In this document: one piece after another, positions 39,144 to 62,482 of the stretch
Numbering within the stretch: the stretch's first letter is position 1
Layout: every line of letters begins with the position of its first letter
Assembly: GCF_013409785.1 (NCBI RefSeq)
Contig: NZ_JACCBV010000001.1
Coordinates: forward strand, 3,224,001-3,288,000
Length of the DNA: 64,000 nucleotides
Direction of reading: 5' to 3'
DNA from: Microbacterium immunditiarum
GTDB lineage: Bacteria > Actinomycetota > Actinomycetes > Actinomycetales > Microbacteriaceae
Made by a program: the position numbers and the translations under genes
The notes under the pieces: generated by a model
The model's input: only the letters and a program-made list of their open reading frames with translations
The model's database searches: none
Told to the model about the DNA's origin: nothing

Positions 39144-40078
39144 GAGGCGGCTCCGTTCGCGAATGTTTCGAGGAAAGCGCGGTAGCACTGGGCCATCCCG
39201 TCACGCAGGGTGGTGTGCGCCGACCAGCCTTGCGCGCGCGCCAGGGAGGAGTCGATAAGCCGGCGAGGCACGCCGCTCGGCTTGGTGGGGTCGAAACTCA
39301 GCCCGCCCGAGTAGCCGACGACCTCGGCCGCGACCTCGTAGTATTCGCGGATGCTGTGATCTTCGCCGTCGCCGACGTTCATGAGCGGGGGCCATGCGCC
39401 GATCGCATTCGCCTCTCGCACGATCCACTCGGCGAGATCGGGTGCGTACGTGAACTCGCGACGGGCGGTCCCGTCGCCCCACACCTCCACCGTGGGCTCC
39501 CCCGCCCGCTTGGCGAGGTGCGTCTTCAGCAGCGTGGACGCGATGAGGTGCGCGCGGTTCGGACCGAAGGAGTCGCCCGGCCCGTAGAGGTTCGAGGGCA
39601 GGATCGCGCGATACACACCTCCGGTCTGGCGTGCGGCGTACTCGACCCCGATGAGGCCTGTGAGCTTGGCGAGTCCGTATGGCTCGTTCGCCTGCTCGAG
39701 CCGCCCGCCGAACAGCGCCGTCTCGGGGATCGGGCTCACCGCGTCGGCCGGGTAGGCCGCCGCACTTCCGATGTAGAGATATGAGGGCACCTCGAGTTCG
39801 ACCGCGGCGGTGAGCATGCTCGCGTCGATGCGCACATTCTCGAGCAGGTATGGCAGCGGGCGAGCGATCTTGTCTGCGATGCCGCCGACGAACGCCGCGG
39901 TGTGGATCACGAGATCCGGGCGCGCCGCGGCGACGGCGTCGTGCGTCGCACGCGCATCGCGGAGGTCGGCGTCCTTCCGGGTCAGGACCGTCAGCTCGTC
40001 GTCAGGACGCAGCCGTCTCCACGCGGCGGCGATGCTGGAGCCCAGCATCCCGCCCCCGCCGGTCAGCAGTGCACGCAC
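39140..40078 (-). CDS. GDP-L-fucose synthase/ColC-like SDR lacking the epimerase Cys
   Basis: Extended SDR of 312 residues closely resembling GDP-fucose synthase (AAFVGGIADK, NEPYGLAKLTG with Tyr134 and Lys138, PSNLYGPGDSF, His177 in NRAHLI, WGDGTARREF, DPTKPSGVPRRL). The E. coli enzyme's SSCIYP motif, whose Cys is the epimerisation base, reads SAAAYP here, with Ala107 in the Cys position. Reductase residues are intact. It may therefore be a 4-keto reductase with altered or no epimerase activity, or a ColC-like enzyme acting on the product of the ColD-like neighbour. GTG 40078 starts 6 bases after gmd. Whether the final sugar is fucose, colitose or another deoxy sugar is open. Confidence 0.8.
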   Translation of the reverse strand: MRALLTGGGGMLGSSIAAAWRRLRPDDELTVLTRKDADLRDARATHDAVAAARPDLVIHTAAFVGGIADKIARPLPYLLENVRIDASMLTAAVELEVPSYLYIGSAAAYPADAVSPIPETALFGGRLEQANEPYGLAKLTGLIGVEYAARQTGGVYRAILPSNLYGPGDSFGPNRAHLIASTLLKTHLAKRAGEPTVEVWGDGTARREFTYAPDLAEWIVREANAIGAWPPLMNVGDGEDHSIREYYEVAAEVVGYSGGLSFDPTKPSGVPRRLIDSSLARAQGWSAHTTLRDGMAQCYRAFLETFANGAAS

Positions 40079-40084
40079 GTGGGA

Positions 40085-41113
40085 TCAGCTCTGCACCTGG
40101 TCGATGTAACGGCGACCCTCGACCTCGAGTGCGGCGATGTCGGCGTCGACCATGATCTGCGCGAGTCGCGGCGTGTGCACCTTGGGCTCCCAGCCGAGCA
40201 GATCCTTGGCACGGCTGTAGTCGCCGATCAGCGCGTCCACCTCCGTCGGCCGCAGGTACCGCTCGTCGAAGCGCACGTACTTCTCCCAATCGAGGTCGAC
40301 GTGCTCGAACGCGAACTGGAGGAAGTCGCGCACCGAGTACGCGGTGTTCGTAGCGAGGACGTAGTCCGTTGGCTCGTCGTGCTGGAGCATCCGCCACATG
40401 CCCTCGACATACTCGGGGGCGTAGCCCCAGTCGCGCACCGCCTCGAGGTTGCCGAGGTACAACTCGGACTGGAGGCCCGCCTTGATGCGGGCGACGGCGC
40501 GCGTGATCTTGCGGGTCACGAACGTGCCGCCGCGTCGGGGGGACTCGTGGTTGAAGAGAATCCCGTTCACGGCGAAGAGGCCGTACGCCTCGCGGTAATT
40601 GCGTGTGGTCCAGTACGAGTACACCTTCGCGACGCCGTACGGCGATCGCGGGTAGAACGGGGTGTGTTCGTTCTGCGGGGGCGGCGTCGCGCCGAACATC
40701 TCGGAGCTCGACGCCTGATAGAACCGGGTCTCTATCTTCGCGGCGCGGATCGCCTCGAGGAGGCGGATCGTGCCGAGGCCCGTGACGTCGCCGGTGTACT
40801 CGGGCTCGTCGAAGCTGACGCGCACGTGCGACTGCGCGGCGAGGTTGTAGACCTCGCTTGGCTGGATCTCGTTGAGCAGGGTCACCAAGCGCGAGCCGTC
40901 GGAAAGGTCGGCGAAGTGCAGGAACAGCCGGTGGTCCGGGGCCTGCGCCGGCTGGTAGATGTGGTCGATCCGCTCGGTGTTGAACGACGATGAACGTCGG
41001 ATAAGACCGTGGACCTCGTAGCCCTTTGAGAGGAGGAGTTCGGCGAGGTAGCTGCCATCCTGACCGGTGATGCCGGTGATGAGGGCGCGTCGAACGTGCG
41101 CGTCTGTCGTCAT
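40085..41113 (-). CDS. gmd: GDP-mannose 4,6-dehydratase
   Basis: NADP-dependent enzyme of 342 residues making GDP-4-keto-6-deoxy-D-mannose. Signatures: [73 protein letters not shown] with Tyr-xxx-Lys, [20 protein letters not shown] and [22 protein letters not shown] 41113 has GGAG six bases upstream; the longer frame beyond it lacks family sequence. First gene of the gmd - fcl-like - ColD-like trio, and downstream of the flippase/DUF2304/GT2 genes on the same strand. GDP-mannose supply starts with manA at 22 kb. Confidence 0.97.
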
Positions 41114-41159
41114 GGGGTTCTCCAATAAGGTCGCACGGTCATCCGCGCGCCGGTCAAGT

Positions 41160-42401
41160 CTAGTCGTCCCTACTCGTCGCGCCGTGGCCGGTGCGAATGG
41201 CCGTGAGGTGGGTGATCGCTCCAAGCGCGGGGGCGGCCAAGAGCGCCAGCAGGACGCGCGGGGTCGTGTCGAGAGGCACGAGCAGAAACGCGACCGTTGC
41301 TGCCGCCGCGACCGCCCACCCCGCGACGTAGCGCCCATGGCGATTCTCCGCGAGCAGGGCGGGACCCGTGAGGAACAGGAGCGCGACGAGTCCCCCGCTG
41401 ACCACGACGCCCGCCGCCGTCAACGACTCGATGTGGTATCTGCCTGACGAGATGATCTCGATGAGCCACGGACCCCACACGGCCGCGGCGAGCGCCAGGA
41501 CCGCGGTCGCACCCACGAGCGCACCGACGAGCCGTAACAGGCGCCCCCCGATGGCTGCCGCACCGTCTCGGAATTCGACGATGAGGAAGCTCTGCAGCGC
41601 CATGAGCGGAACGACGAGCGGCGCGCGCGTGATCGTGATCATGAGCACGAGCCCCGCGAGCTCGACGACGTCGGCGTCCGGGATAAGCGTGCGCATCAGC
41701 AGGGGCAGACCGGTGACCATGACACCCGTCGCGGCGGCGGCTCCCACCGTCCGCGCCGCGTTGGCGGTGAGCCGCCCGGCACGGACGTCAAGGCGGAAAC
41801 GGCCGACGACGCGACCGCGCACGACGAGCCATCCCACGCCGAACGCGAGGCTGAACGGCAGGCTGATGAGGATCGCGAGCACGCCCGCATCGAGACGTGC
41901 CACGAGGCCGACCGTCACTGCGGCGGCGCGGACGACCGCGTCGAGCGTCATGAGCAGCGCGATCCCGCGCCATTGCGATAGCCCGTAAAGGACGCCGCTG
42001 AGCACGGCGGTGAGGAGGTAGCCGACGAGACCCAGTGCGAAGGCCGCTGTCATGACCGCCGGAGCCTCCGAGAACGCCGTTGGAGCGAGAACGGCCCCGA
42101 CCGCGGCGGCGGTCACGGTCAGCCCGAGCGCCCCGAGGATGGTGAAGGTCCGCAGCGTCGTGCTGCCCGGCGGAGTCGCGGCGGGGCGGGTGGCCCGGGT
42201 GACCTCTTGCTGCACTCCCGCGATCGCCGCGAGAAATAGGTAGAGCGTCGACCAGAAGATGCTGAACGCGAGGTATGCGGAGGGCTCCTCGATGAGAGCG
42301 GGCGCGAGGAGCTGGAGGAGGTAGCCGCACACCCCCGCGATCGCGGTCGCGGCGAGGATGAGCGCGAGCCCGCCGCGGCGCGACTCAGTCGGCGCGGTCA
42401 T
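41160..42401 (-). CDS. Wzx-like polysaccharide flippase (MATE/MVF-like membrane protein)
   Basis: Protein of 413 residues with about twelve hydrophobic helices and few charged loops ([20 protein letters not shown] at the start, [20 protein letters not shown] mid-protein). The [14 protein letters not shown] segment resembles polysaccharide exporters of Actinobacteria. The start at ATG 42401 lies 17 bases inside the DUF2304 gene; an upstream alternative would overlap further. Operon order GT2 - DUF2304 - flippase - gmd points to translocation of a lipid-linked glycan unit. Family assignment is from topology and context, not from strong motifs. Confidence 0.7.
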
Positions 42402-43576: not shown

Positions 43577-44731
<1,155 letters not shown>

Positions 44732-44916: not shown

Positions 44917-45894
44917 ATGATGGCGCCGGCGAAACCCCTGGTGAGTCTCGTCATCCCGGCGTACAACGAAGTCGACTCCGCGGGCGACATCGCGGAGTTC
45001 TACGCGCAGATCCTCTCGACCTACACGGATGTCTCGTTCGAGCTCATCCTCGTTGACGACGGCTCGACCGACGGCACCGCCGACGCGCTCCAGACGACGC
45101 TCTCGGGCGTCGGCCCGGCGCGCATCGTGAGCCTGTCACGCAACTTCGGCTCCCACGCGGGCATCACCGCGGGGTTCGCCCACGCGCGCGGCGACGCGGT
45201 GCTGACGCTCAGCGCCGACCGCCAGGAGCCGCTCGAGGCGATCGGGCAGTTCCTCGAGCAGTGGCACGCCGGCGCCGACATCGTGTGGGGTCTTCGCTCT
45301 GTTCGGGCGGTCCGCAAGGGCATGGGCGAGACCTTCGCGCGCGTGTTCTCGCGCATCTACGGTGCCAACTCTGATGTCCCGAACTATCCGTCCGAGGGGC
45401 CCTCGCAGATCCTCGTCTCGCGCGCCGCCCTCGACGCGCTCAACGCGATGCCCGAGCTCAACCGCAACGTCCTGGCGATGGCGGCCTGGGTCGGCTTCGA
45501 CCAGCGGCGCATCTACTTCGAGCAGCTCCCCCGTCCGCACGGCACGAGCAAATGGACGACGAAGCGCAAGATGAAGCTCGTCGTGGACTCGTTCGTGGAG
45601 TTCTCGCACGCGCCCGTCGAGTGGGTCGCGTGGGGCGGCCTGCTCATCGGCGCGATCGGCGGCCTGCTGCTCATCCTCGCGATCCTGCTGGCGTTCTTCC
45701 AGCCGTTCGGTGCCGCGGTCGCGCTGCTGAGCGGCCTCATCCTCATCGTCGGCGGGATGATCCTCGTCGGGATCGGCGTCCTTGGCGAGTACGTCTGGCG
45801 CGCCGGGGACGACGCCCGCCGCCGCCCCGTCTACGTCGTCCGCTCCATCGCCGAAGTCGGTGGCGCGCAGCCCGCTACCACTGGAGATCAATGA
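44917..45894 (+). CDS. Polyprenyl-phosphate glycosyltransferase with C-terminal membrane helices (GtrB/ArnC type)
   Basis: Protein of 325 residues. The cytosolic GT2 domain has LVSLVIPAYNEVDSAGDIAE, ILVDDGSTDGTAD, LSRNFGSHAGITAGFAHARGD and SADRQEPLE, the ArnC/GtrB/PglC-like pattern; two membrane helices at about 240-265 and 272-298 follow. It would load a sugar onto undecaprenyl phosphate for use by membrane-bound (GT-C) transferases. AAGGAAATG places a ribosome site just before ATG 44917. The ATGA overlap links it to the DegT aminotransferase that follows. Confidence 0.9.
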   Translation: MMAPAKPLVSLVIPAYNEVDSAGDIAEFYAQILSTYTDVSFELILVDDGSTDGTADALQTTLSGVGPARIVSLSRNFGSHAGITAGFAHARGDAVLTLSADRQEPLEAIGQFLEQWHAGADIVWGLRSVRAVRKGMGETFARVFSRIYGANSDVPNYPSEGPSQILVSRAALDALNAMPELNRNVLAMAAWVGFDQRRIYFEQLPRPHGTSKWTTKRKMKLVVDSFVEFSHAPVEWVAWGGLLIGAIGGLLLILAILLAFFQPFGAAVALLSGLILIVGGMILVGIGVLGEYVWRAGDDARRRPVYVVRSIAEVGGAQPATTGDQ

Positions 45895-47030
45895 ACCGCT
45901 CCGTCGCCCTCGGCGCACCGACTGTAGGCCAGGAGGAGCTCGACGCCGTCCGAGACGTCTTCGAGTCCGGATGGCTCTCGGGCGCCGGCCCGTCCTGCCT
46001 CGCGTTCGAGAAGGAGTTCGCCGCGGTCGCCGGCGTCGAGAACGTCCTGTCGACGAGCAACTGCGGCTCGGCCCTCCACCTCGGCCAGCTCGTGCTCGGC
46101 GTGAAGCCGGGCGACGAGGTCATCGTCGGCGACTACACGTTCCCGGCGACCGGCCACTCGGTCATGTGGTCCGGGGCGAAGCCGGTCTTCGTCGACGTCC
46201 GCCCCGACATCTGGTCGATCGACCCGGCGCAGATCGAGGCGGCGATCACGCCCCGCACCGCCGGCATCATCGCGGTCGACCCCTTCGGGCAGCCCGCCGA
46301 CTACGACGAGATCCGGGCGATCGCCGACCGCCACGGTCTGTGGCTGATCGAGGACGCCGCCTGTGCGACTGGAGCCACGTACAAGGGTCGCAAGGTCGGC
46401 GAGATCGCGGATGTCACGGCCTACAGCTTCCACGGACGCAAGGGAATCACGTCGGGTGAGGGCGGCGCGCTCGCGAGCCCGCGAGCAGACCTCGTCGCGC
46501 ACGCTCGGAAGCTCCACACGTACGGGATCGCGCCGGCCATCACGCGCGAGGGCCTCGCGGAGCTGCCCGTCCCCTCCTTCGATGAGCTCGGGTACAACTA
46601 CCGCCTCTCCGACGTGCAGGCGGCCATCATGCGCGTGCAGGTGCGCCGGCTCCCCGAACTGCTCGCCGCGCGCACCCGCGTCGCGAACGGGTACCGCGAG
46701 CTGCTGGGCGACCTCGAGCAGATCACGCTCCCGGTCGCGCTCGACGACCGGACGCACCCCTGGCAGTCGTACGTGATCACGGTCGACCCCGCACTCGACC
46801 GTGGATCGGTCGCGATGGCGCTGCGCGCCCGAGGGGTCGGATGCAACTTCGGCACCTACGCGAGCCATGTGCAGCCACTCTATGGCGAGCAGCGCGAGCT
46901 TCCGGTCTCGGCCGACCTGTTCCGCCGCCACATCGCCATCCCCATGCACGCGAACCTGGCCGAGGACGACGTCGCCTACGTCGCGGAGGTTCTGCGCGAC
47001 GTCGTCTCGGACTCGACTCACCGACACTGA
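45891..47030 (+). CDS. DegT/DnrJ/EryC1-family sugar aminotransferase
   Basis: PLP enzyme of 379 residues. SNCGSALHLGQLVLGVKPGDEV binds the cofactor phosphate, the Asp of IEDAACATGATYKG pairs with the pyridine nitrogen, and the catalytic Lys is present in SFHGRKGITSGEGGAL. ELGYNYRLSDVQAAIM is a family hallmark. ATG 45891 overlaps the GT2 stop. Downstream are an SDR and a hexapeptide acyltransferase, so the module could make an N-acylated amino sugar nucleotide: keto-sugar, amination, acylation. The position of the amino group cannot be deduced. Confidence 0.9.
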   Translation: MNRSVALGAPTVGQEELDAVRDVFESGWLSGAGPSCLAFEKEFAAVAGVENVLSTSNCGSALHLGQLVLGVKPGDEVIVGDYTFPATGHSVMWSGAKPVFVDVRPDIWSIDPAQIEAAITPRTAGIIAVDPFGQPADYDEIRAIADRHGLWLIEDAACATGATYKGRKVGEIADVTAYSFHGRKGITSGEGGALASPRADLVAHARKLHTYGIAPAITREGLAELPVPSFDELGYNYRLSDVQAAIMRVQVRRLPELLAARTRVANGYRELLGDLEQITLPVALDDRTHPWQSYVITVDPALDRGSVAMALRARGVGCNFGTYASHVQPLYGEQRELPVSADLFRRHIAIPMHANLAEDDVAYVAEVLRDVVSDSTHRH

Positions 47031-47053: not shown

Positions 47054-48001
47054 ATGAGCAACACCCGCACCGCGTTCGTCACCGGCGGCGCCGGCTTCAT
47101 CGGCCTCCACGTCGTCGAGCAGCTGCTCGAGCGCGACTGGAACGTCCGCATCTTCGACAACATGTGGCGAGGCGACCGCGACCGCGCCAACGAGCTCGCC
47201 AAGACGGGCAAGGTCGACGTCGTCGACCAGGACGTGCGCTCCGGCGGTGCCGTCGCCGCCGCGATGAAGGGCTCGACCCACGTCATCCACCTCGCCGCGG
47301 ACTCCATCAACAAGAGCGTCGCCGATACCTACAGCTCGCTCGACGTGAACGTCGTCGGCTCGCACAACGTGTACTCGGCGGCCGTCGACCAGGGCGTGCA
47401 GCGCGTCGTGTACGCGTCGAGCGCGTCGGTGTACGGCGACCCAAAGAAGCTGCCCATGCACGAGGACGACGAGCTCAACCCGCTCACGCCGTACTGCATC
47501 GGCAAGCGCACCGGCGAGGACCTACTGCGTTACTACGAGCGCAAGGCCGGCCTGTCGTGGATCGCGCTGCGTTTCTTCAACGTCTACGGCCCCGGGCAGA
47601 AGACGACGGCGTACTACACGAGTGTGATCAACCACTTCGTGAACCGCCTCCGCAACGGCGAGCCGCCGGTAATCGACGGCAAGGGCGAGCAGTCGATGGA
47701 CTTCATCCACGTGAAGGACATCGCGCGCGCCGTGGTACTTGCAACCGAGTCCGAGAAGGCGAACGCCGCGATCAACGTCGGAACCGGCATCGACACGAGC
47801 GTCGCCGATCTCGCCCGCATCCTTATCGACGCCATCGGCGCCGACGTCGAGCCGCAGTTCAACCCGCGCGACGTCCTCGTCAGCCGTCGTGCGGCCGACA
47901 CCCGCCGCGCGAAGGAGATGATCGGGTTCGAGTACTCGATCGACGTTCGCGACGGCATGACCGACCTCATCCGCTTCGAGCACGAGCGCGCGGCGGTCTG
48001 A
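47054..48001 (+). CDS. Extended SDR, UDP-glucose 4-epimerase-like
   Basis: NAD-dependent sugar-nucleotide epimerase/dehydratase of 315 residues. GGAGFIG nucleotide-binding motif, [11 protein letters not shown], catalytic Ser in [10 protein letters not shown], Tyr-xxx-Lys in [25 protein letters not shown] and [15 protein letters not shown] at the C-terminus are seen. It sits 23 bases after the aminotransferase and one base before the acyltransferase. It may provide the keto or epimerised substrate for the aminotransferase. It lacks features that would distinguish 4-epimerase from dehydratase. Confidence 0.85.
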
Positions 48002-48002
48002 A

Positions 48003-48440
48003 ATGGCGACGACGGGGCTCCCCGAGAACCCGTACAACCCGCACGCCTGGATCATCGGAGAGCCCGAGATCGGCGAGGGCACCTGGATCGGGGCGTTCAC
48101 CCTGATCGACGGGTCGGGGGGCCTCACCATCGGCCGCGGCTGCGACATCTCGTCGGGAGTCCACATCTACACGCATTCGTCCGCGCGCCGGTGCGTCTCA
48201 GGACGACGCTTCGCAGACGTGGAGCGGGAGCCGGTCGCCATCGGCGACCGCGTCTTCATCGGGGCGAACGCCGTCGTGAACATGGGCGTCACGATCGGCG
48301 ACGAAGCCGTGGTGGGCGCGGGTGCCGTCGTCACGAAGGACGTGCCGCCGCGGACGGTCGTGGCGGGCGTCCCCGCGCGGATCGTGGCCGACGTCGACCT
48401 GTCGGGCGACCGACCGGAGTTCTTGCCGACGCGGAGCTGA
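48003..48440 (+). CDS. Left-handed beta-helix (hexapeptide) acyltransferase
   Basis: Protein of 145 residues built almost wholly of hexapeptide repeats ([55 protein letters not shown]), ending in PARIV as in NodL/WbbJ/VioB-type acetyltransferases. A probable catalytic His is in HIYTHSS. The position after an aminotransferase and an SDR suggests acetylation of an amino or hydroxy group on the sugar nucleotide. ATG 48003 is one base after the SDR stop. The gene ends just before two terminator-like hairpins. Confidence 0.87.
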
Positions 48441-48441
48441 C

Positions 48442-48471
48442 GCGGATCGATCCGCGCCGCTCCTGCGGCGT
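48442..48471. terminator. Tandem hairpins between convergent genes
   Basis: CGCGGATCGATCCGCG (48442-48457) is a perfect 16-base palindrome. CGCCGC (48456-48461) pairs with GCGGCG (48466-48471) around TCCT. They fill the 30-base gap between the convergent acyltransferase and oxidoreductase genes. Probable bidirectional terminator without a T run. Confidence 0.6.
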
Positions 48472-49430
48472 CAGCGCTTCGTCGCGAGCGCCGCGTCGAC
48501 GATGCGGTGCGCCGGCAGGATGCTGTGGCGCTCGATGTCGGGGTCGACGTCACCGGCGATGAGGTCGAGGAACCTGTCGAACTGCGTCGCGAGCGGCTCG
48601 CGCCCGGTGATCTCGGGCACCTCCATCTCGGTCACCTGCCGGAAGCCGCTCCCCCCCGGGCGGTCCGCGTCGATCGTCGTGTGACGGAAGAGCGTCACGC
48701 CGCGCCGCAGGAGGTCGACCTCGATCATGTCGTCGAGCGTCTGCACGACCAGCGACCGGACCTTCCGCTGACCCAGGCGGCTCGCGGATGCCGAGGCTAA
48801 TCCCTGCTCCGCGAACCGGAGCGAAACGTCGACAACGTCCTCGGCATCCGGCGCGGATGACGGGTGGAAGTGACCCACCTCGACGTTGATGGCGTCGGGC
48901 TCGCTGCCGCCGAAGATCTGGGTGATGAGATCCACGTCGTGAACGAGCAGGTCCCACGCGACGCCGGTCTTGATCCTCGGCGCGTACGGGGAATGGCGCT
49001 CCGCGCGCACGTAGAGGGGGTCGTCGATCATGCGCCGGGCGACCATCACGGCGGGGTTGTACCGCTCGAGGAACCCGCACATGATCGGCGTGCCGGCGGC
49101 TTCGGAGAGCTGTAAGATCTCGGTCGTCTGCTCGAGCGACGGGCACACCGGCTTCTCGATGAGGAGCGGCCTGCCCGCCGCGATGACGTCCTTGGCGATG
49201 CGGTAGTGGTGCTCCGTCGACGCGGAGACGATCACGGCGTCGACATCGGCGATTGCGTCAATCGTCGGGCTCCACTGCGTATCGTGCTCGACCGCGAGCG
49301 GAGCGCCGGACTCCTCCAGCGGGTCGATGATGACGGAGAACTCGGCCCGCGAGGACTGCGCGATGATCCGGGCGTGGTTGCGCCCCATCGACCCCGCCCC
49401 GATGAGGCCGATCCGTGGCCGCGTGCTCAT
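48471..49430 (-). CDS. Gfo/Idh/MocA oxidoreductase, UDP-GlcNAc 3-dehydrogenase (GnnA/WbpB) candidate
   Basis: NAD-dependent dehydrogenase of 319 residues. IGLIGAGSMGRNHARI is the nucleotide-binding start, STEHHYRIAKDVIAAG and LLIEKPVC carry the conserved EKP Lys, and VAWDLLVHDVDLI places the catalytic His/Asp. MGRNHAR and the length fit GnnA, which oxidises UDP-GlcNAc at C3 before amination. ATG 49430 overlaps the stop of the aminotransferase (ATGA), so the two are coupled. An alternative is WbpB/WlbA, which acts on UDP-GlcNAc uronic acid. The choice between these is inference. Confidence 0.8.
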   Translation of the reverse strand: MSTRPRIGLIGAGSMGRNHARIIAQSSRAEFSVIIDPLEESGAPLAVEHDTQWSPTIDAIADVDAVIVSASTEHHYRIAKDVIAAGRPLLIEKPVCPSLEQTTEILQLSEAAGTPIMCGFLERYNPAVMVARRMIDDPLYVRAERHSPYAPRIKTGVAWDLLVHDVDLITQIFGGSEPDAINVEVGHFHPSSAPDAEDVVDVSLRFAEQGLASASASRLGQRKVRSLVVQTLDDMIEVDLLRRGVTLFRHTTIDADRPGGSGFRQVTEMEVPEITGREPLATQFDRFLDLIAGDVDPDIERHSILPAHRIVDAALATKR

Positions 49431-50518
49431 CGCACCGCCTGCCGCACGGCCGCGGCGATCGTGTCGAGATCGCCCTCCTGCAAATGCTGGTGCACGGGCA
49501 GTGACACGCAGCGCCGCGCGACGTCTTCGGCCACGGGTGTCTCGCTGCGGATGACATCCGGCCGGTCGCGGTACGTGTCGTAGTCGTAGACCGGCTTCGG
49601 GTAGTAGATGCCGCTTCCGACGCCGCTCGCCGTGAGCGCGTCGACGAAGCCCTGGCGGTCGAGACCCTCGGGGAGCAGCACGGTGTACTGGTGCCACACG
49701 TGGCCTCGGCCCTCGACCTCGCGAGGCAGGATGAGCCCGTCGATGTCGGCGAGCCGCTCGGTGAGCCCCGCCGCGTTCGCGCGCCGCTTCTCGAGCTGGC
49801 TCGGGTAGTCGGCCAGCGCCGGCAGCACGAGCGCCGCCTGCAGGTCGGTCATGCGGTAGTTGTGGCCCGCCATCACGTACTCGTAGCGCGCCCGCATCCC
49901 CTGGTTCCGCAAGATGCGCAGCTTCTCGGCGATCGCGTCGTCGTTCGTGGTGATGATGCCGCCCTCACCGGTCGTGAGGTTCTTGGTCGCATAGAAGGAG
50001 AAGCACCCGAGGCCGAAGTTGCCGACGGGCGTCCCCGCGTACGTCGCGCCGTGGGCCTGCGCCGCGTCCTCGACGATCGCGAGACCCGCCTCGTCGGCGA
50101 TGTCGACGATGGGCGCCATGTCGGCGGATTGCCCGTACAGGTGGACGGGCATGATCACACGCGTGCGGTCGGTGAGCTGCGCGCGCACCGACTCCGGGTC
50201 GAGGCAGAAGTCGTCGACCCGGATGTCGCCGAACCGCACCGTCGCGCCCGCTTCCAGGATCGCGTTGAGCGTCGCGATGAACGTGAAGGGCGTCGTGATG
50301 ACCTCGTCGCCGGGCCTGAGATCCAGCGCCTGGACCGCCGCGACGAGGGCGGTGGTGCCGTTGTTCACTGCGACGGCGTGCTTCGTTTCGACAAGCGAGG
50401 CGAACGCCGACTCGAACTCGGCGACGACCGGACCCTGGGCGACGACGCCGGAGCGTACGACCTGCAAGACGCGCTCTTCGACGGCAGGCCCGAGGACCAC
50501 GGTGGAGATGGGGATCAC
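49427..50518 (-). CDS. DegT-family aminotransferase, GnnB/WbpE candidate
   Basis: PLP-dependent aminotransferase of 363 residues. NNGTTALVAAVQAL binds phosphate, Asp is in IVEDAAQAHGATYAG, the catalytic Lys is in SFYATKNLTTGEGG, and GHNYRMTDLQAAL is the dimer-interface hallmark. The DEVITTPFTFIATLNAIL segment resembles 3-aminotransferases of the WbpE/GnnB group. GTG 50518 has AAGGAAG seven bases upstream, which fixes the start inside a longer frame. It would aminate the 3-keto sugar made by the coupled dehydrogenase, using glutamate and releasing 2-oxoglutarate. Confidence 0.85.
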   Translation of the reverse strand: MIPISTVVLGPAVEERVLQVVRSGVVAQGPVVAEFESAFASLVETKHAVAVNNGTTALVAAVQALDLRPGDEVITTPFTFIATLNAILEAGATVRFGDIRVDDFCLDPESVRAQLTDRTRVIMPVHLYGQSADMAPIVDIADEAGLAIVEDAAQAHGATYAGTPVGNFGLGCFSFYATKNLTTGEGGIITTNDDAIAEKLRILRNQGMRARYEYVMAGHNYRMTDLQAALVLPALADYPSQLEKRRANAAGLTERLADIDGLILPREVEGRGHVWHQYTVLLPEGLDRQGFVDALTASGVGSGIYYPKPVYDYDTYRDRPDVIRSETPVAEDVARRCVSLPVHQHLQEGDLDTIAAAVRQAVR

Positions 50519-50760
50519 GTGACTTCCTTCAGCCGGATCTGTGTGGGGGACGAGCACACGTCCAGGAGAGAAGCCTACCGGCGGTGTCGCACGGCACCGG
50601 CGGCCACGGTGTGCGATCACCGGACGCTCGGGGAACCTCGGCTATCATGAGTGGGCTCGCCGCCGGACGGCGCGCGTTCCCAGACCACACTTCGTCGTGG
50701 TTTCCGCATGCGAACCGCTTAGGTCACCGTGACTGAGCCGGCAGAGAACCACTTGGAGTC
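50519..50760. promoter_or_regulatory. Divergent promoter region between GnnB-like and LpxA-like genes
   Basis: A 242-base gap without genes. TAGGCT (50577-50572, minus) is a -10 candidate for the aminotransferase, giving a leader of about 47 bases with a ribosome site. TATCAT (50643-50648, plus) is a -10 candidate for the acyltransferase, giving a leader of about 105 bases. ACCAC (50684-50688) and GTGGT (50697-50701) could form a small hairpin in that leader. GGAG at 50755-50758 is rather close to the ATG. Confidence 0.45.
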
Positions 50761-51483
50761 ATGACCTCGAACCGGATCCATCCGTCCGCCGTCATCAGCG
50801 ACGCCGTCGAACTCGGCGCGGGTGTGACCGTGGGACCGAACGCCGTCATCCTCGGACCCGCCGAGATTGCCGACCGCGTCTGGATCGGTCCCGGCGTCGT
50901 GATAGGAACGCCGCCCGAGATCGCGGACCGCGTACAGAACGCAGCGTGGACCGGCGAAGTGATGCACACCGGTGTCCGAATCGGCGAGGGCACCGTCATC
51001 CGTGAACTGACGACCATCCACCAGGGAAGCCACCGCACGACGACGATCGGCTCGAACTGCTGGATCCTCAATTCGTCGTACGTGGCCCACGACTGCCTCA
51101 TCGGCGACGGCGTGACGATCTCGGCCGGCACTCGGCTCGGCGGCCACGTCATCGTCGGCGATATCGCGAATCTCGGGATGTCGGTGGTCGTCCACCAGCA
51201 CCGCGTCATCGGGGCCGGCGCCATGGTCGGGATGGGAACGCCCATCACGAGAGACGTCCCGCCCTTCACGAAGGCGTACGGGAACCCGCCCCGACTGCAC
51301 GGCGTCAACGAATACGCCCTGCGCCGACTGTCGTACGACGACGAGACGATCGACCGCGTCCGCGACTCGCTCCTGGCAGCCGACCCCTCCGTCCTCGCAG
51401 GCGGGCTGGCGGCGGCTCCCGTGCGCGAGTGGCTCGAGCTCGCCCAGCGCGAAGCGCTGACGGTGATGGGAGTCGAGGAGTGA
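50761..51483 (+). CDS. LpxA-like sugar-nucleotide acyltransferase
   Basis: Left-handed beta-helix protein of 240 residues. Hexapeptide coils begin at residue 7 (IHPSAVISDAVELGAGVTVG), and the LpxA active-site region is recognisable: ELTTIHQGSHRTTTIG and NSSYVAHDCLIGDGV with the His that acts as base in LpxA. A helical C-terminal domain (VNEYALRRLSYDDETIDRVR) also matches LpxA. A monoderm has no lipid A, so it probably acylates an amino sugar nucleotide, perhaps the 3-amine made by the divergent GnnA/GnnB-like pair. The next gene starts in the GTGA overlap. Whether the acyl group is short or long is unknown. Confidence 0.85.
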   Translation: MTSNRIHPSAVISDAVELGAGVTVGPNAVILGPAEIADRVWIGPGVVIGTPPEIADRVQNAAWTGEVMHTGVRIGEGTVIRELTTIHQGSHRTTTIGSNCWILNSSYVAHDCLIGDGVTISAGTRLGGHVIVGDIANLGMSVVVHQHRVIGAGAMVGMGTPITRDVPPFTKAYGNPPRLHGVNEYALRRLSYDDETIDRVRDSLLAADPSVLAGGLAAAPVREWLELAQREALTVMGVEE

Positions 51484-52490
51484 CCTTCGAAGAGCCGACC
51501 GAGCCGACGACGGCGCCAGCCCGCAAGAGCGGGCGCGCGGTCGTCATCAACGTGCTCCGGTGGATCCTCATCGCCCTCGTCGTGGCGGCCGCCGTGTGGC
51601 AGCTCTGGGTCAACTGGGAGGCCGTCGCCTTCACGATCGGCGATCTTCAGTGGCATCGCACGACGCTGTCCTTCATCGCCGTGATCGTCGGCATGGCGTG
51701 CGCGACCTTGAGCTGGCAGGTGCTCCTCGACGACCTCGGCAAGCCCATCGGCTTCGGCCGCGGCGCGCAGATCTTCCTCGTCGGCCAGCTCGGCAAGTAC
51801 CTCCCCGGGTCGATCTGGGCGTACGTCCTCCAGATCGAGCTCGGCAACAAGGCGGGGCTCGCCCGCGCCCGCACGTTCGCCGCGACGCTCTTCTCGGTCG
51901 TCATCGCGGTCTTCGCGGCGCTGGTGTGCGGCTCGGTGGCGATCCCCTCGCTCATGGCGAGCGATCCGCGGCTCTCGTGGCTGCCGTGGCTGTACATCGT
52001 CCTTCCGTTCGCGGCGATCCTGCTGTGGCCGCCGGTCCTCACCGCGATCGTCCGGATCGGATTCAGGATCCTCCGTCGCCCGCGGCCCGACCACCCCGTG
52101 ACGCTCTCGGTCGTAGCGAAGTCGCTCGGCCTCGCCATCGGGTCTTACCTCGCCTTCGGCACGCACCTCTGGCTGCTCGCCGACACGCGGCAGGGCCTGA
52201 CCATCAACCCGTGGGCGCTGTGCGTCGGCACGATGGCGGTCGCGATGCTCGCGGGCCTCGCGTTCTTCCTGCTCCCGAGCGGCGTCGGCGCGCGCGAGCT
52301 CGTCATCATCGCCGCCCTGACGCCGATCGTCGGCGTCGGCCCCGCGACGGCCTACGCCGCCGTCTCCCGCGTCATGTTCATCCTCGCCGACCTACTCACC
52401 GCGGGCACCGCCGCGGGTATGGCCGTCATCGCACGCCGCCGGCTCGGCCCGTACACCGGCGACCCCGACCCCGGCCCCGCCGCCGTCTGA
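51480..52490 (+). CDS. UPF0104/lysylphosphatidylglycerol synthase-type transmembrane protein
   Basis: Integral membrane protein of 336 residues with about eight helices. VGQLGKYLPGSIWAYVLQ is the family hallmark, and FFLLPSGVGARELVIIAAL near the C-terminus is also conserved. No aminoacyl-transferase domain is attached, so the enzyme activity of MprF is absent; stand-alone members often occur in polysaccharide loci and may flip lipids or lipid-linked sugars. GTGA overlap with the LpxA-like gene indicates translational coupling. Function by family is uncertain. Confidence 0.87.
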   Translation: MTFEEPTEPTTAPARKSGRAVVINVLRWILIALVVAAAVWQLWVNWEAVAFTIGDLQWHRTTLSFIAVIVGMACATLSWQVLLDDLGKPIGFGRGAQIFLVGQLGKYLPGSIWAYVLQIELGNKAGLARARTFAATLFSVVIAVFAALVCGSVAIPSLMASDPRLSWLPWLYIVLPFAAILLWPPVLTAIVRIGFRILRRPRPDHPVTLSVVAKSLGLAIGSYLAFGTHLWLLADTRQGLTINPWALCVGTMAVAMLAGLAFFLLPSGVGARELVIIAALTPIVGVGPATAYAAVSRVMFILADLLTAGTAAGMAVIARRRLGPYTGDPDPGPAAV

Positions 52491-52507
52491 TCCCGAGGAG
52501 CACATCT

Positions 52508-53692
52508 GTGACCACCGTCGTCGTGGGGGCCGGCATCGTCGGCCTGGCTGTGGCTCGCGCGCTGGCACGGTCCGGCGAGCACGTCATCGTCATCGAGAAG
52601 GAGGCCGGCGTCGCCCGACACCAGACGGGCCGCAACTCCGGCGTCATCCACTCCGGCCTCTACTACACGCCCGGGTCGTTCAAGGCCCGCATGTGCGTGG
52701 CCGGCGGGGCGTCGATGAAGCAGTACGCCGCCGAGCACGGCATCGCCCACGAGATCACGGGCAAGCTGGTCGTCGCGACGCATGAGGCGCAGCTCGAGAA
52801 GCTCGCCGTCCTCGAGCAGCGGGCGATCGCGAACGGCGTTCCCGCGCGGCGGATCACGAGCGACGAGGCGCACAAGTACGAGCCGGGTGTGCGCTGCGTC
52901 GCGGCGCTCCGCGTCGAGTCGACCGGAATCATCGATTACACGGGTGTGTGCCTCGCCCTCGCCAACGAGATCACGGCGGCGGGTGGAGAGCTGCGGTTCT
53001 CGACGAAGCTCCTGCGCGCGGCATCCGGCGACGACGGCGTCGTGGTGGAGGCGGATGCCGGGCCGGTCCGCGCCGACTACCTGATCAACTGCGCCGGGCT
53101 ACACAGCGACACCGTCGCGAAGCTGTGCGGCGTCGAGCCGGATGTGCGCATCATCCCGTTCCGCGGCGAGTACTACACTGTCGCTCCCCCGAGCGCCGAC
53201 CTCGTGCGCGGGCTCATCTACCCGGTCCCCGATCCGCGCTTCCCGTTCCTCGGCGTGCATCTCACCAAGATGGTCGACGGCTCGATCCACGCCGGCCCGA
53301 ACGCCGTGTTCGCTTTCGCGCGCGAGGGCTACCGCTGGCGCGACATCAACGTCGCGGACCTGTGGCGGTCGGCTACGTGGCCGGGCCTCTGGCGCCTCGG
53401 GGCGAAGTACGCCGGCACGGCCTATGGCGAGGCCCGCCGCTCGTTGTCGCGGGCGGAGTTCGCCCGCAGTCTGTCCGAGCTTGTGCCCGGGATCACCGCC
53501 GCGGATCTCGTGCCAGCGAAGTCAGGTGTGCGGGCGCAGGCGATGCGCCGCGACGGGTCGCTCGTCGACGACTTCGAGTTTCAACGCGGGCCGCGGCAGT
53601 TCCACGTGCTCAACGCGCCATCGCCTGCGGCGACGGCCGCATTGGAGATCGCCGACATGGTGCTCGCCGAAGCCAGGAAGGGTGTCGCATGA
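52508..53692 (+). CDS. lhgO: L-2-hydroxyglutarate oxidase (LhgO)
   Basis: FAD-dependent oxidoreductase of 394 residues of the DAO superfamily. VVVGAGIVGLAVARALA binds FAD, GRNSGVIHSGLYYTPGS is the LhgO signature, ESTGIIDYT and FRGEYYTVAP precede the catalytic part, and HLTKMVDGSIHAGPNAV and SGVRAQAM complete it. It oxidises L-2-hydroxyglutarate to 2-oxoglutarate. GTG 52508 follows GAGGAG (about 52493-52498). The next gene overlaps by ATGA. Its place inside a glycan operon is unusual and may be explained by the GnnA/WbpB-like step nearby, whose family can dump hydride on 2-oxoglutarate. Confidence 0.9.
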   Translation: MTTVVVGAGIVGLAVARALARSGEHVIVIEKEAGVARHQTGRNSGVIHSGLYYTPGSFKARMCVAGGASMKQYAAEHGIAHEITGKLVVATHEAQLEKLAVLEQRAIANGVPARRITSDEAHKYEPGVRCVAALRVESTGIIDYTGVCLALANEITAAGGELRFSTKLLRAASGDDGVVVEADAGPVRADYLINCAGLHSDTVAKLCGVEPDVRIIPFRGEYYTVAPPSADLVRGLIYPVPDPRFPFLGVHLTKMVDGSIHAGPNAVFAFAREGYRWRDINVADLWRSATWPGLWRLGAKYAGTAYGEARRSLSRAEFARSLSELVPGITAADLVPAKSGVRAQAMRRDGSLVDDFEFQRGPRQFHVLNAPSPAATAALEIADMVLAEARKGVA

Positions 53693-55929
53693 CCGCCGCC
53701 GTCACCGAGGTCCGCGACGAGAGCACGGACGAGCCGGCCGAGTCCCCCGCAGGGTCCCAGGCCGCGAGTCGCCGTCGCTGGCTGCCGCCGGCCGCGATGC
53801 TGCTCGTCACGTTTATCGGCTCCCTCCTCCCCCTGATCCGCAAGCCCGGGTTCTACTTCTGGGACGACACCGCCGGCGTCGCCGTCGGCGTGTGGCAGCG
53901 CATCGCCCAGGACGTCCTGAGCGGCCAGAGCCCGTTCCTGCAGACCGACATGTGGCGCGGCGGCGATTTCATCGCCGAAGCCGCGACGGGCATGTGGAAC
54001 CCGGTGATGCTGGGCCTCATGATCGGCACCTACCCGATTGACGACGTAGGCGCGGCCATCACCGTGGCGAAGATTTTGCTCTTCCTCCTCACGGCAGGCG
54101 GCGTCTACGTGCTTGCCCGCAGCTTCGGCGCGACGCCGTGGCTGTCGGCGATCGCCGGTGCGACGCTCTCGCTGAGCGGCTGGGCGATCTTCATGGACGG
54201 ATCGTCGTGGGTCAACGGCACCGCGATCACGGCGTTCACGCCGTGGGCGTGGTGGGCGCTACGCCGCGCGTACAAGCGCGGTTTCGACGCGTGGTCGATC
54301 GTCCTGGCGGCGGTGCTGTGCTACCTCGCTCCGTCCACCGGCAACCCCTATGGCGTGCTTACGCTCGCGATCGTCTTCCTCGCCGTCGCCGTCGAGGCTA
54401 TCGTCGACCGGCGGCCGAGCGCGATCGGGTGGTTGGTCTCGATCGGCGTCGGCGTCGTCCTCACGGTCGTCATCGTCTACCTGCCTTTCGTCTACACGTC
54501 GGCATACGGCTTCCGCGCCAACTCCGGCATGTGGAACGACGAGTTCCTCTCGATCTCGCTCAGCGACCTCATGGGCCTGAGCTCCCCGACGCACCGCCCC
54601 TACATCACGATGTTCGGCGGCACCCCGATGGGCTTCCCGGGCACCTACCTCGGGTGGTTCGTGCTGCCGCTGCTTCCGTGGCTGCACTGGCGCGGTGCGC
54701 GCATGTGGGCGAGACTCGCGGGTCCGCTCGTGTTCGGGGCGGTCTTCCTCCTCTTCACCCTCGGCCCGTCGCAGTTCGGCATGTTCCGCTGGCCGGCGCG
54801 CCTCGTGCCGTTCCTCTACCTCGCCGTGATCCTCGTCTTCGCGGTGGTGGCGTCGCGAGGGCTTCGCACCGACCGCCGCTGGGTCCGCAGCGCCGTCTCG
54901 GCGGGCATCATCCTCCTCGGCGCATGGATCGCGTGGGCTGACGTCCCGGGCGCGTGGAAGTGGCACGCTCTCGCGACCGCCGCCGTCTTCGCCGGCACGG
55001 CCGTGCTCGTCTTCTGGGCGAAGTTGGGCGGCCGCGGGTTCGCGACGATCACCGCAGGACTGCTCGTCTTTCTCGGCGCGCAGTTGACCCTCACACCGTC
55101 GAACCGCAATGTGGCCGACTACGAGATGCCGTCGTCGCGCTCGGCGCTGGCCGAGCAGTTCGCCGACCGCTCCGACGGCTTGACGGTGCAGGTTTTCGAC
55201 ATCCACGCGCTCGTCCGCCACCACCCCGCGCCCGAGCGCTGGGACGACCTCCTCGCAGGCAACATGCCGTCCGTCGCCGGCTTCGAGTCGACGACGGCGT
55301 ACAGCGGCATCGGCTTCACCGCGTTCGACAGCGCCCTGTGCCTCACGTACAACGGCGGCACGTGCGCCGGCGCGTGGGACGCGCTGTGGGAGGAGCCGTC
55401 CGGCTACGACGTGCCGCTGGCCGACCTCCTCAACGCACGCTACGTCGTCGTGCTCAACGACTACGCCGATGTCGAAGACACCCCGCCCGGCTGGACCGAG
55501 ACGGAGTCCACGAGCGTCGTCACGATCTTCGAGCGCGACGAGGCGCCGGGCGGGGCGACAGGCACCATCTCCTTCGCAGGCGACGATGTCGACATCGCGT
55601 CCGCACAGCGCAGCGGCAAGACAGACGAGAGCGTCGAGGTCACGACCGGCTCCGGCGACACGCGTCTCACGTTCGCCCGCATCGCGTGGCCCGGCCACAG
55701 CGCGACGTTCGACGGGGAGGATCTACCCGTCGAGATCGGGCCGGCCGGGCTGCTCTCGGTCGAGCTCCCCGAGAACGCGAGCGGCACGCTGTCGATCTCG
55801 TTCGCGCCCCCGGGTCTGCTGATGGGCGCGGCGGCCGCCGGCATCGGCGTCCTGATCCTCGCCGCATGCGCAGTCGTCGGAGCCCGTAGGCGAGCACGTC
55901 GGTCCGCAAGCCCGACCGGCCGTCTGTGA
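53689..55929 (+). CDS. Large GT-C/YfhO-like membrane protein
   Basis: Protein of 746 residues. Around twelve membrane helices occupy residues 30-460, followed by an extracytoplasmic beta-rich domain (about 465-715) and a final helix near 718-740. The first extracytoplasmic loop has [14 protein letters not shown], an acidic pair placed as in GT-C glycosyltransferases, and [17 protein letters not shown] further on; overall layout resembles YfhO. Such enzymes use polyprenyl-phosphate sugars outside the cell, possibly those made by the GT2 at 44.9 kb. ATG 53689 overlaps the lhgO stop. Confidence 0.72.
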
Positions 55930-60972: not shown

Positions 60973-61776
60973 ATGAAGAGCGCCCTCATCGGCTACACAG
61001 GTTTCGTCGGCACCAACATCCACGCCGTCCAGCCGTTCGACGATCTCTACAACTCGTCGAACATCGGCGACATTGCGGGCCGCGAGTACGACCTCGTCGT
61101 GTCGGCGGGCAATCGCGCCGACTCGCACCGGATCAACACACACGGGGCCGAGGACCGGCGTGAGATCGACGGACTCGTCGATCTCGTCCTCCAGGCAAGG
61201 ATCCGCAAGCTCGTGCTCATCTCGACCGTGTGCGTCTATCCCGAGGGCGGTTCGCCCGACGAGGGCACCCCGCTCACCGAGGACGGGCTGACGCCGTACG
61301 GCGTAAACCGACTGCACCAGGAGCGCCGGCTCGCGGCATCCGTCGACACGACGATCGTCCGCCTGCCGCAGCTCTACGGCAACGGACTCAAGAAGGGCGT
61401 CGTGTACGACCTGCTGAACGACTACCGCGTCGAGTACATCCGGCCGCAGACGGAGTTCCAGCATTACGACGTGCGGCGCCTGTGGCGCGACATCAGCACA
61501 GCCCTCGACGCCGGCCTCGAAAGCTTCAACGTTGCGACGCCCCCGATCGCGAACGAAGACCTCGCGCGCGAGGTCTTCGGCCGCGACATCGCCGACCAGG
61601 AGCCGCTCACGCCCGAGTCGCCGTTCGCGCAGATGTACACGCGGAACATGACGACCCGGCATGCCGAGCTGTTCGCCGGATCGGGGCCGTATCTGCTGTC
61701 GCGCGAAGATGAGCTGGCGGGCCTGAAGGCGTTCGTCGCCGAGGCACGCTCCGATCAGACCAGAAGGAGAGGCTGA
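60973..61776 (+). CDS. Atypical SDR with catalytic Lys replaced by Arg
   Basis: Protein of 267 residues. The Rossmann start ALIGYTGFVGTNI keeps GxxGxxG, and STVCVYPEG retains the Ser/Thr and Tyr region. Where extended SDRs have Tyr-xxx-Lys, the sequence reads YGVNRLHQE, so Lys is Arg. The C-terminal half (IRPQTEFQHYDVRRLWRDI) resembles NAD-dependent epimerases of capsule loci. GGAAGGA lies ten bases before the ATG. It is followed at once by an IspD/TarI-type cytidylyltransferase; SDR and cytidylyltransferase domains are fused in Haemophilus CDP-ribitol synthesis enzymes, so a related role is possible. Activity is uncertain. Confidence 0.7.
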   Translation: MKSALIGYTGFVGTNIHAVQPFDDLYNSSNIGDIAGREYDLVVSAGNRADSHRINTHGAEDRREIDGLVDLVLQARIRKLVLISTVCVYPEGGSPDEGTPLTEDGLTPYGVNRLHQERRLAASVDTTIVRLPQLYGNGLKKGVVYDLLNDYRVEYIRPQTEFQHYDVRRLWRDISTALDAGLESFNVATPPIANEDLAREVFGRDIADQEPLTPESPFAQMYTRNMTTRHAELFAGSGPYLLSREDELAGLKAFVAEARSDQTRRRG

Positions 61777-61777
61777 C

Positions 61778-62482
61778 ATGCATCGCGGACACAAGGTCTC
61801 AGCGATCGTGACCTGCGCGGGCAAGGGAACCCGGTTCGGGTCGAACAAGCTCCTCGTCGAGCTCGGTGGCAGGACGATCCTCGAGAAGACGGTGCGGGCG
61901 ATGCTCGTGCCGGCCGTCGACGAGCTCGTCGTCACGATCAGCGCCGACAACGAGGCTGAGTATCGGCGCATCCTCATCGACGAGGCCGGGCTCCCCGTCA
62001 CGCTCGTTCGGGGCGGCGCGGAACGCCACATCAGCGCGCAGCGCGGGCTCGAGGCCACCTCGGGCGACATCGTCCTCGTCCACGACGGGGTGCGCCCCTT
62101 CGTGACGGAGGATCTCGTGATGCGCGTCCTCGACGCGGCGATCGACCACGGCGCAGCGATGATCGGAACCCCGAGCACCGTCCAGGTCAAGCTCGTCACC
62201 GACGACGGATTCATCGAGGGCTCGCTCGACCGGGCGCATTCGTGGCTGGGTCAGACCCCGCAGGGCTTCCGCCGCGAGCTTCTCGACGCCGCGTACCGCG
62301 CGGCGGCGGCCGAGGGATACTCGCGCGTGAGCGACGACGCGGATCTCGTGCACGAGTACACGGGCACGCCGGCTCGCATCCTGCCCGGGCACGTCAACAA
62401 CATCAAGATCACGACGCCGCAAGATCTCGGCACCGCGCAGCTCATCGAGCAGCACCTCATCGAAGAGGTTGACCGCGTATGA
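61778..62482 (+). CDS. IspD/TarI-family cytidylyltransferase
   Basis: Protein of 234 residues. AIVTCAGKGTRFGSNKLLVEL is the CTP-binding start, RTILEKTVRAM, VTLVRGGAERHISAQRGL, VLVHDGVRPFV, SLDRAHSWLGQTPQGFRREL and SDDADLVHEYTG match the IspD/TarI family, which makes CDP-methylerythritol or CDP-ribitol. The genomic setting between an SDR and a TarS-like glycosyltransferase favours a polyol-phosphate activating enzyme such as TarI over the isoprenoid enzyme. AAGGAGAGG precedes ATG 61778. The next gene starts in the ATGA overlap. Substrate is inference. Confidence 0.85.
   Translation: MHRGHKVSAIVTCAGKGTRFGSNKLLVELGGRTILEKTVRAMLVPAVDELVVTISADNEAEYRRILIDEAGLPVTLVRGGAERHISAQRGLEATSGDIVLVHDGVRPFVTEDLVMRVLDAAIDHGAAMIGTPSTVQVKLVTDDGFIEGSLDRAHSWLGQTPQGFRRELLDAAYRAAAAEGYSRVSDDADLVHEYTGTPARILPGHVNNIKITTPQDLGTAQLIEQHLIEEVDRV

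Follow-up and report, generated by a model that had tools for sequence, protein, structure and literature searches.

Why does a gene for an L-2-hydroxyglutarate (L-2-HG) oxidase, lhgO, stand among genes for amino-sugar synthesis in an actinobacterium? The enzyme is mostly associated with lysine/glutarate breakdown and, under the name L2HGDH, with human disease. The locus lies in a stretch of 64,000 nucleotides (the window), bases 3,224,001-3,288,000 of the 3.9-Mb single-contig genome of Microbacterium immunditiarum, where a preliminary description had placed, at 48471..53692, a coupled pair of GnnA-like and GnnB-like genes diverging from an LpxA-like acyltransferase gene, with lhgO two genes further on in the same direction. 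All five genes of this interval were found with that layout, including the overlap of the GnnA-like and GnnB-like genes and a PF03706 gene between the LpxA-like gene and lhgO (Table 1). The interval is part of a larger module reaching left to a second DegT aminotransferase (DegT2), an extended short-chain dehydrogenase/reductase (SDR) and a small acetyltransferase (AT480). Mapping this module in related genomes, we found that the linkage of lhgO to it is real, conserved and made by more than one LhgO lineage, so that LhgO is not a chance neighbor.

The genus, order, class and family genome sets used here are samples. The full module consists of DegT2, SDR, AT480, the GnnA-, GnnB- and LpxA-like proteins, the PF03706 protein and LhgO, with a variable GT2 glycosyltransferase. 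Among 396 order genomes, an SDR ortholog (E<=1e-95) occurs in five, the window's included, and in all five lhgO lies 1.4-4.7 kb from the SDR gene (4/4 without the window genome), with the GnnA/GnnB/LpxA/DegT2/AT480/PF03706/LhgO set nearby, GnnB of L027 being a contig-end fragment; LhgO alone is found at E<=1e-90 in 100 of the 396. A scan based on LhgO found the module in three of six loci, those of Microbacterium hydrocarbonoxydans (L013, of the named full loci the one closest to the window), Schumannella soli and Cellulosimicrobium funkei, and no further module gene in the 10-kb flanks of the other three (one Cellulomonas, two Vibrio). Five further genomes with the set were found through the LpxA-like protein, which at E<=1e-30 is matched only in the window genome among 119 genus genomes. 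Outside the window the set recurs at 36-89% identity.

Nine full loci, by a definition that uses DegT2 among its genes, are made up of the five SDR-ortholog loci, L039 from another family and L013-L015, which were found through LhgO. All nine carry lhgO no more than 7.5 kb from the SDR gene, but its place among the other module genes is of four kinds: it follows the PF03706 gene in the window, L013, L015 and L026 and, at a distance of 2.8 kb, in L014; it follows AT480 in L027 and L029; it lies upstream of DegT2 and divergent from it in L031; and it is convergent with the PF03706 gene in L039. A tree that joins the nine module LhgOs in a single clade is rejected (p-AU 4e-44), L039 falling in a separate lineage, and one clade of the eight LhgOs of the window's lineage has a borderline p-AU of 0.045. 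A third lineage is seen in genome G854, whose LhgO is on the same contig as a GnnA/GnnB/LpxA-like trio, about 18 kb away; this contig starts inside the module, so that SDR and DegT2 cannot be judged there. G854 and the genome of L039 (G667) each have a second LhgO elsewhere.

The survey of lhgO co-occurrence suggested in the preliminary description shows what the gene follows, which is, within small numbers, the complete module and not the GnnA/GnnB pair. Three orthologous trios without the second triad, L030 (G350), L038 (G614) and L158 (G876), show no lhgO across the region that was read; the whole genome of G350 yields no lhgO match at E<=1e-60, and G614 has lhgO unlinked to the trio. L030 and L031 (G488) belong to one genus and share GnnA, GnnB and LpxA-like proteins at 62%, 66% and 70% identity, yet only L031 has the second triad and lhgO. 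Likewise, none of the 15 retrieved loci that carry a more distant GnnA/GnnB pair has lhgO (GnnA 26-31%, one family, 9.8-19.9 kb read). The difference between 9/9 full loci and 0/3 trio-only regions free of contig-end truncation gives a Fisher value of 0.0045, and that between 5/5 and 0/3, with the window and the three other loci known through LhgO left out, 0.018, for small numbers of loci that are not independent; contig ends truncate L028 and L036 as well as GnnB of L027, and L037 has only a distant GnnA (27%). Thus, the coupling of lhgO to an amino-sugar locus holds, but not to the pair itself: the pair is found repeatedly without lhgO, and the full module is not.

The assignment of LhgO is well supported at the level of family and predicted active site. 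The protein passes the equivalog model NF008726 (cut-off 299 bits), and its best PDB match is Drosophila L2HGDH (dmL2HGDH, 8w75, E 2.1e-91), in which S88, H92, Y289, L299, H302 and R393 line the 2-oxoglutarate site (PMC10726252). These residues, S44, H48, Y238, L248, H251 and R342 in the window, are kept in 10/10 cluster LhgOs (the nine of the full loci and that of G854) and equally in the 44/44 other LhgOs of the alignment, and so are a feature of the whole family that does not set the cluster LhgOs apart. The window lhgO is the sole match in its genome at E<=0.001 (15 of 26 first-look candidates scored), and a full-length LhgO (E<=1e-90) occurs in 20 of the 119 genus genomes, the window's included. 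In G091, a native LhgO appears as two pieces in different frames, by frameshift or sequencing error (Table 1). CsiD is a known L-2-HG source, acting with LhgO in E. coli glutarate breakdown. As a source in the module genomes it was rejected, since it was found in 0/6 of them with a positive E. coli control.

For the trio, the labels given earlier are borne out by Pfam, NCBIfam and PDB comparisons. The closest solved relative of the GnnA-like protein, by sequence and by fold (predicted structure, pLDDT 92.7), is GnnA of Acidithiobacillus ferrooxidans (7bvj, 7bvk), and its best NCBIfam match is the archaeal UDP-N-acetylglucosamine (UDP-GlcNAc) 3-dehydrogenase model, at 124.2 bits against a cut-off of 450. 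The LpxA-like protein fails the curated LpxA models (161.6 vs 231.05 bits, 176.2 vs 226 bits) and keeps His110-Asp111 in 14/14 aligned sequences, His110 being the presumed catalytic histidine. Its best single-sequence PDB match is 8e62 (Pcryo_0615); with a profile of its family, true LpxA proteins rank first and 8e62 seventh. Its predicted structure (pLDDT 70.9) gave no fold match at E 0.001. Lipid A synthesis was rejected on the LpxA cut-offs, with no search made for the remaining lipid A genes. The preliminary description had implied that a 2,3-diamino sugar would be odd in a monoderm, which is not supported: a teichuronic-acid-like wall polymer of Streptomyces is reported to contain ManNAc3NAcA and GlcNAc3NAcA (PMC13274773), so that, on this account, diamino sugars are already established in monoderm actinobacterial walls.

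In the second triad, the closest solved structures to DegT2 are 3bn1 (213 bits) and 8sng (205 bits), perosamine synthetase and ArnB, which are C4 aminotransferases. The SDR carries the motifs SSASVYG and YCxxK, lacks a dehydratase-type acidic pair at the active site in alignment and scores 146.7 bits against the galE model (cut-off 262.3); we presume that these motifs are epimerase-type and not dehydratase-type, and as such no obvious source of a second keto group. AT480 is 71-84% identical in the other eight full loci. GT2 matches NF047588 (167.2 bits) and the ArnC model (111.8 bits), both under cut-off; it adjoins DegT2 in the window, L013 and L015, lies about 2 kb away in L026 and has no match in L027, L029, L031 and L039, and the L014 stretch begins too near DegT2 to judge. 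The PF03706 protein, possibly flippase-like, is present in 9/9 full loci at 40-78% identity. A homolog of the 746-aa membrane protein, which has no Pfam match, directly follows lhgO in L013 and L015. Two sets of oxidoreductase, aminotransferase and acyltransferase suggest a sugar that is aminated and acylated twice.

On this basis we propose, tentatively and with a chance that we put a little short of even, that the locus is a module for a doubly aminated, acylated nucleotide sugar of an envelope glycan, equipped with LhgO as a dedicated L-2-HG recycler. The GnnA-like/GnnB-like/LpxA-like triad would oxidize, aminate and acylate C3 of a UDP-GlcNAc-type sugar, the SDR/DegT2/AT480 triad would carry out a second such round, probably at C4, and GT2, the PF03706 protein and the GT-C-like protein would pass the sugar outwards. 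In one of the module's sugar dehydrogenases, tightly bound NADH might be re-oxidized by 2-oxoglutarate, which the aminotransferases would release, and LhgO would return the resulting L-2-HG to 2-oxoglutarate, relieving product inhibition. The source of L-2-HG could be the GnnA-like enzyme, if its stereochemistry is opposite to that of WbpB, or the SDR half, or housekeeping dehydrogenases acting in side reactions; module enzymes are favored over the last, and the SDR half slightly, because lhgO tracks it.

Table 1. Features of the module, of its surroundings in the window and of related loci elsewhere
Feature	Location	Strand	Basis
GT2 glycosyltransferase, ArnC/PgfS-like, polyprenyl-phosphate sugar transferase type	44917..45894	+	PF00535 80.3 bits
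Second DegT aminotransferase (DegT2)	45891..47030	+	PF01041 344.4 bits
Extended SDR, GalE-like	47054..48001	+	PF01370 181.7 bits
AT480, 145-aa left-handed beta-helix acetyltransferase	48003..48440	+	Hexapep_2 59.3 bits
GnnA-like Gfo/Idh/MocA dehydrogenase, 319 aa	48471..49430	-	Pfam; PDB closest = GnnA
GnnB-like DegT aminotransferase	49427..50518	-	Pfam DegT, PDB comparison; 4-base overlap with GnnA-like gene
LpxA-like acyltransferase, 240 aa	50761..51483	+	NCBIfam/PDB, below LpxA cut-offs
PF03706 (LPG_synthase_TM) membrane protein	51480..52490	+	42.3 bits; 4-base overlap with LpxA-like gene
LhgO, FAD-dependent L-2-hydroxyglutarate oxidase family	52508..53692	+	NF008726 527.8 bits
Multi-pass membrane protein of 746 aa, resembling GT-C/YfhO proteins in appearance only	53689..55929	+	4-base overlap with lhgO
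GlfT2-like galactofuranosyltransferase	25319-27229		
CWB2/beta-lactamase-like protein	35737-37959		PF13354
RfbH-like DegT, epimerase, GDP-mannose 4,6-dehydratase	37956-41338		256.5 bits (RfbH-like, under cut-off); 456.7 bits (dehydratase)
UDP-galactopyranose mutase	43577-44713		GLF 281.7 bits
IspD-type cytidylyltransferase beside weak SDR match	60973-62482		169.5 bits
rfbF-lhgO-SDR-rfbC-DRL operon, Deinococcus	L183 6148-11077		
rfbF-lhgO-SDR-rfbC-DRL operon, Deinococcus	L184 4639-9562		
rfbF-lhgO-SDR-rfbC-DRL operon, Deinococcus	L185 4644-9607		
rfbF-lhgO-SDR-rfbC-DRL operon, Deinococcus	L189 4726-9721		
rfbF-SDR-rfbC-DRL set without embedded lhgO	L085 13061-16722		
rfbF-SDR-rfbC-DRL set without embedded lhgO	L088 3192-6823		
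rfbF-SDR-rfbC-DRL set without embedded lhgO	L090 3651-7258		
Native LhgO in two pieces	G091:C1:2001448-2002565		

LhgO also takes part in a second kind of glycan locus. LhgO was matched in 207 plasmid records. Ten of these neighborhoods were read, and an rfbF-lhgO-SDR-rfbC-DRL operon is present in all four Deinococcus records matched (the DRL domain was scanned in three and assigned by similarity in the fourth), while the six other plasmid LhgOs (two Streptomyces, Priestia, Rhizobium, Niallia, Bernardetia) have no recognizable glycan operon. In the Micrococcales loci L085, L088 and L090 a similar set, 61-66% identical to that of Deinococcus except for rfbF (45-47%), runs in the direction of LhgO and begins about 2.2-2.6 kb downstream of it; a quick tree, weakly supported at its deep nodes, does not place their LhgOs with those of Deinococcus. 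The rfbF-type operon has no aminotransferase or GnnA among its genes, and shares with the window module LhgO and an extended SDR (SDRs 26% identical). The presence of DRL (PF21135) in a CDP-sugar operon suggests that the sugar is unusual, perhaps branched or ring-altered. Among the 100 order genomes with LhgO, neighborhoods were read for all 31 with at least 51% identity and for 15 others. No conserved partner of stand-alone LhgO emerged from the 25 most widespread ORF families listed for the surroundings of 49 loci: the families present in many loci were frames overlapping lhgO, and the others mostly belonged to the common surroundings of family f18 or were spurious GC-rich frames; three of the 49 are near an rfbF-SDR-rfbC-DRL set. 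An lhgO elsewhere with a conserved partner of its own, which the preliminary description had considered a point against the coupling, is therefore found in part, in the rfbF-type loci. DegT- or rfbF-type genes lie near non-module LhgO in 7/53 loci (L040, L041, L082, L085, L088, L090, L115) against 0/20 controls, which is not significant (Fisher 0.09) under a criterion chosen after the matches were seen; the count leaves out lone SDR or acetyltransferase matches in L104, L107 and L108, and one of the 53 loci is L127 of G854, on the contig that carries the trio.

Several observations weigh against the module with a dedicated recycler. That its enzymes use 2-oxoglutarate as oxidant is our own supposition, WbpB in the published work yields D-2-HG (PMC8651671), and the WlbA enzymes of B. 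pertussis and C. violaceum are reported to be sequential, unlike the ping-pong, 2-oxoglutarate-using WbpB (PMC10622841). Diverged relatives of the second triad also occur in regions with no lhgO in the 20 kb read: L179, which has a distant GnnA/GnnB pair, carries next to it relatives of SDR (52%), DegT2 (42%) and AT480 (64%); relatives of two second-triad genes occur in L175, and one of SDR in L177. Furthermore, 31 order genomes have an LhgO of at least 51% identity, and in 26 of these it is not part of such a module; the window lhgO is the only one found in its genome, where a housekeeping role is consequently possible. The last two points would fit an LhgO that is a general metabolite-repair gene merely sitting in the cluster and spreading with it. 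We regard this as unlikely, since lhgO stays within 8 kb of SDR in 9/9 full loci through four arrangements, module LhgOs come from more than one lineage, G667 and G854 keep a second LhgO elsewhere, and the scarcity of full-length LhgO in the genus indicates that most of its members can do without the enzyme.

The loop set out in the preliminary description, in which the GnnA-like dehydrogenase itself turns 2-oxoglutarate into L-2-HG and LhgO closes the circle with GnnB, gains from the presence of a GnnA-like gene in 9/9 full loci, each with lhgO, and from the membership of the 2-oxoglutarate-recycling WbpB in the Gfo/Idh family. Its premise that WbpB-type enzymes release the L form is contradicted by P. 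aeruginosa WbpB, which was shown to make D-2-HG (PMC8651671), and in the regions read lhgO is missing beside the trio-only loci, including the L030 member of the L030/L031 pair, and beside the distant pairs. Weakened by stereochemistry and by these loci, the loop is a proposal only, and one that we consider quite improbable. Similarly improbable is a cluster LhgO that oxidizes another 2-hydroxy acid or a sugar-linked hydroxyl in place of L-2-HG. The rfbF-type loci speak for such a substrate, with LhgO embedded in 4/4 Deinococcus operons and a similar gene set downstream of it in L085, L088 and L090; as these loci lack an aminotransferase, aminotransferase-derived 2-oxoglutarate is not the common factor. 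Nonetheless, the six site residues are unchanged in 10/10 cluster LhgOs and in the three Deinococcus sequences checked, and dmL2HGDH is reported inactive on L-malate, L-lactate and D-2-HG (PMC10726252).

A wider version of the dedicated-recycler proposal, possible though on balance doubtful, would make L-2-HG an obligate by-product of several nucleotide-sugar pathways, with LhgO recruited repeatedly, in Actinomycetota and Deinococcota, as a built-in recycler. Oxidoreductases of extended SDR or GnnA type would then pay their electrons to 2-oxoglutarate, in an L-series counterpart of the D-2-HG/WbpB cycle that is encoded inside glycan loci.

The module lies in a region with other glycan genes (Table 1). 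A UDP-galactopyranose mutase and a GlfT2-like gene make a galactofuranose-containing polymer likely. The RfbH-like DegT, epimerase and GDP-mannose 4,6-dehydratase match form, by their predicted functions, a separate deoxysugar set, next to a protein with a cell-wall-binding repeat and a beta-lactamase-like domain. The IspD-type cytidylyltransferase and its SDR neighbor resemble what we take to be a TarI/TarJ arrangement of polyol phosphate genes. In the divergent region 50300-50900, two overlapping terminator-like matches lie inside the GnnB-like gene and no promoter-like match was found; an Rfam scan of the window gave nothing reaching gathering score.

These results give LhgO a probable role in building surface glycans and name a small conserved module in which that role can be examined. 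Related clusters keep lhgO close despite reshuffled genes, a pattern suggesting that sugar synthesis involves a hidden recycling step, and their gene content points to a rare envelope sugar, probably doubly aminated and acylated, in some Micrococcales. Should the proposal hold, some bacteria would form L-2-HG as a normal intermediate when they make sugar nucleotides, and a redox debt paid to 2-oxoglutarate would be a general design in which either enantiomer is possible. L030 and L031 offer a natural within-genus pair, the trio without lhgO against the full module with it, suited to biochemical comparison.

Compared with known systems, the proposed role of LhgO is like that in the CsiD-LhgO system of E. 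coli, in which it removes the L-2-HG made by its partner, except that CsiD was found in 0/6 module genomes. GnnA, GnnB and LpxA of A. ferrooxidans, whose product is UDP-GlcNAc3N, belong to the same three protein families as the window trio; they differ in identity (about 25%), and the window system has a monoderm host, an LpxA-like protein below the cut-offs, and an added second triad and LhgO. Pcryo_0615 of Psychrobacter cryohalolentis, deposited as a UDP-GlcNAc acyltransferase that N-acetylates in a diacetamido-sugar pathway, resembles the LpxA-like protein, but has 189 aa and serves a different pathway; the O-antigen of that species contains a triacetamido sugar (PMC8040287). The nearest functional parallel is in P. 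aeruginosa, where 2-HG inhibits the WbpB dehydrogenase of the WbpB/WbpE pathway and a 2-HG-oxidizing flavoenzyme, PA0317, supports this amino-sugar 3-dehydrogenase pathway; loss of this D-2-HG dehydrogenase lowers O-antigen, which the authors tentatively attribute to inhibition of WbpB by D-2-HG (PMC8651671). Thus, contrary to the preliminary description, which knew of no such coupling, a related one had been described. In the open-license literature, no paper was found that joins 2-hydroxyglutarate with UDP-N-acetylglucosamine 3-dehydrogenase, and none on LhgO and polysaccharide dealt with this coupling, judged by title and abstract start. The P. aeruginosa pathway acts on UDP-GlcNAcA with one amination only, and PA0317 acts on the D and not the L enantiomer, belongs to an unrelated flavoprotein family and is not presented there as a linked gene. 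The trio adds a member to a kind of system already known, 2-HG recycling in glycan synthesis has been described before, and, as far as the literature was searched, the dedicated LhgO is the new part.

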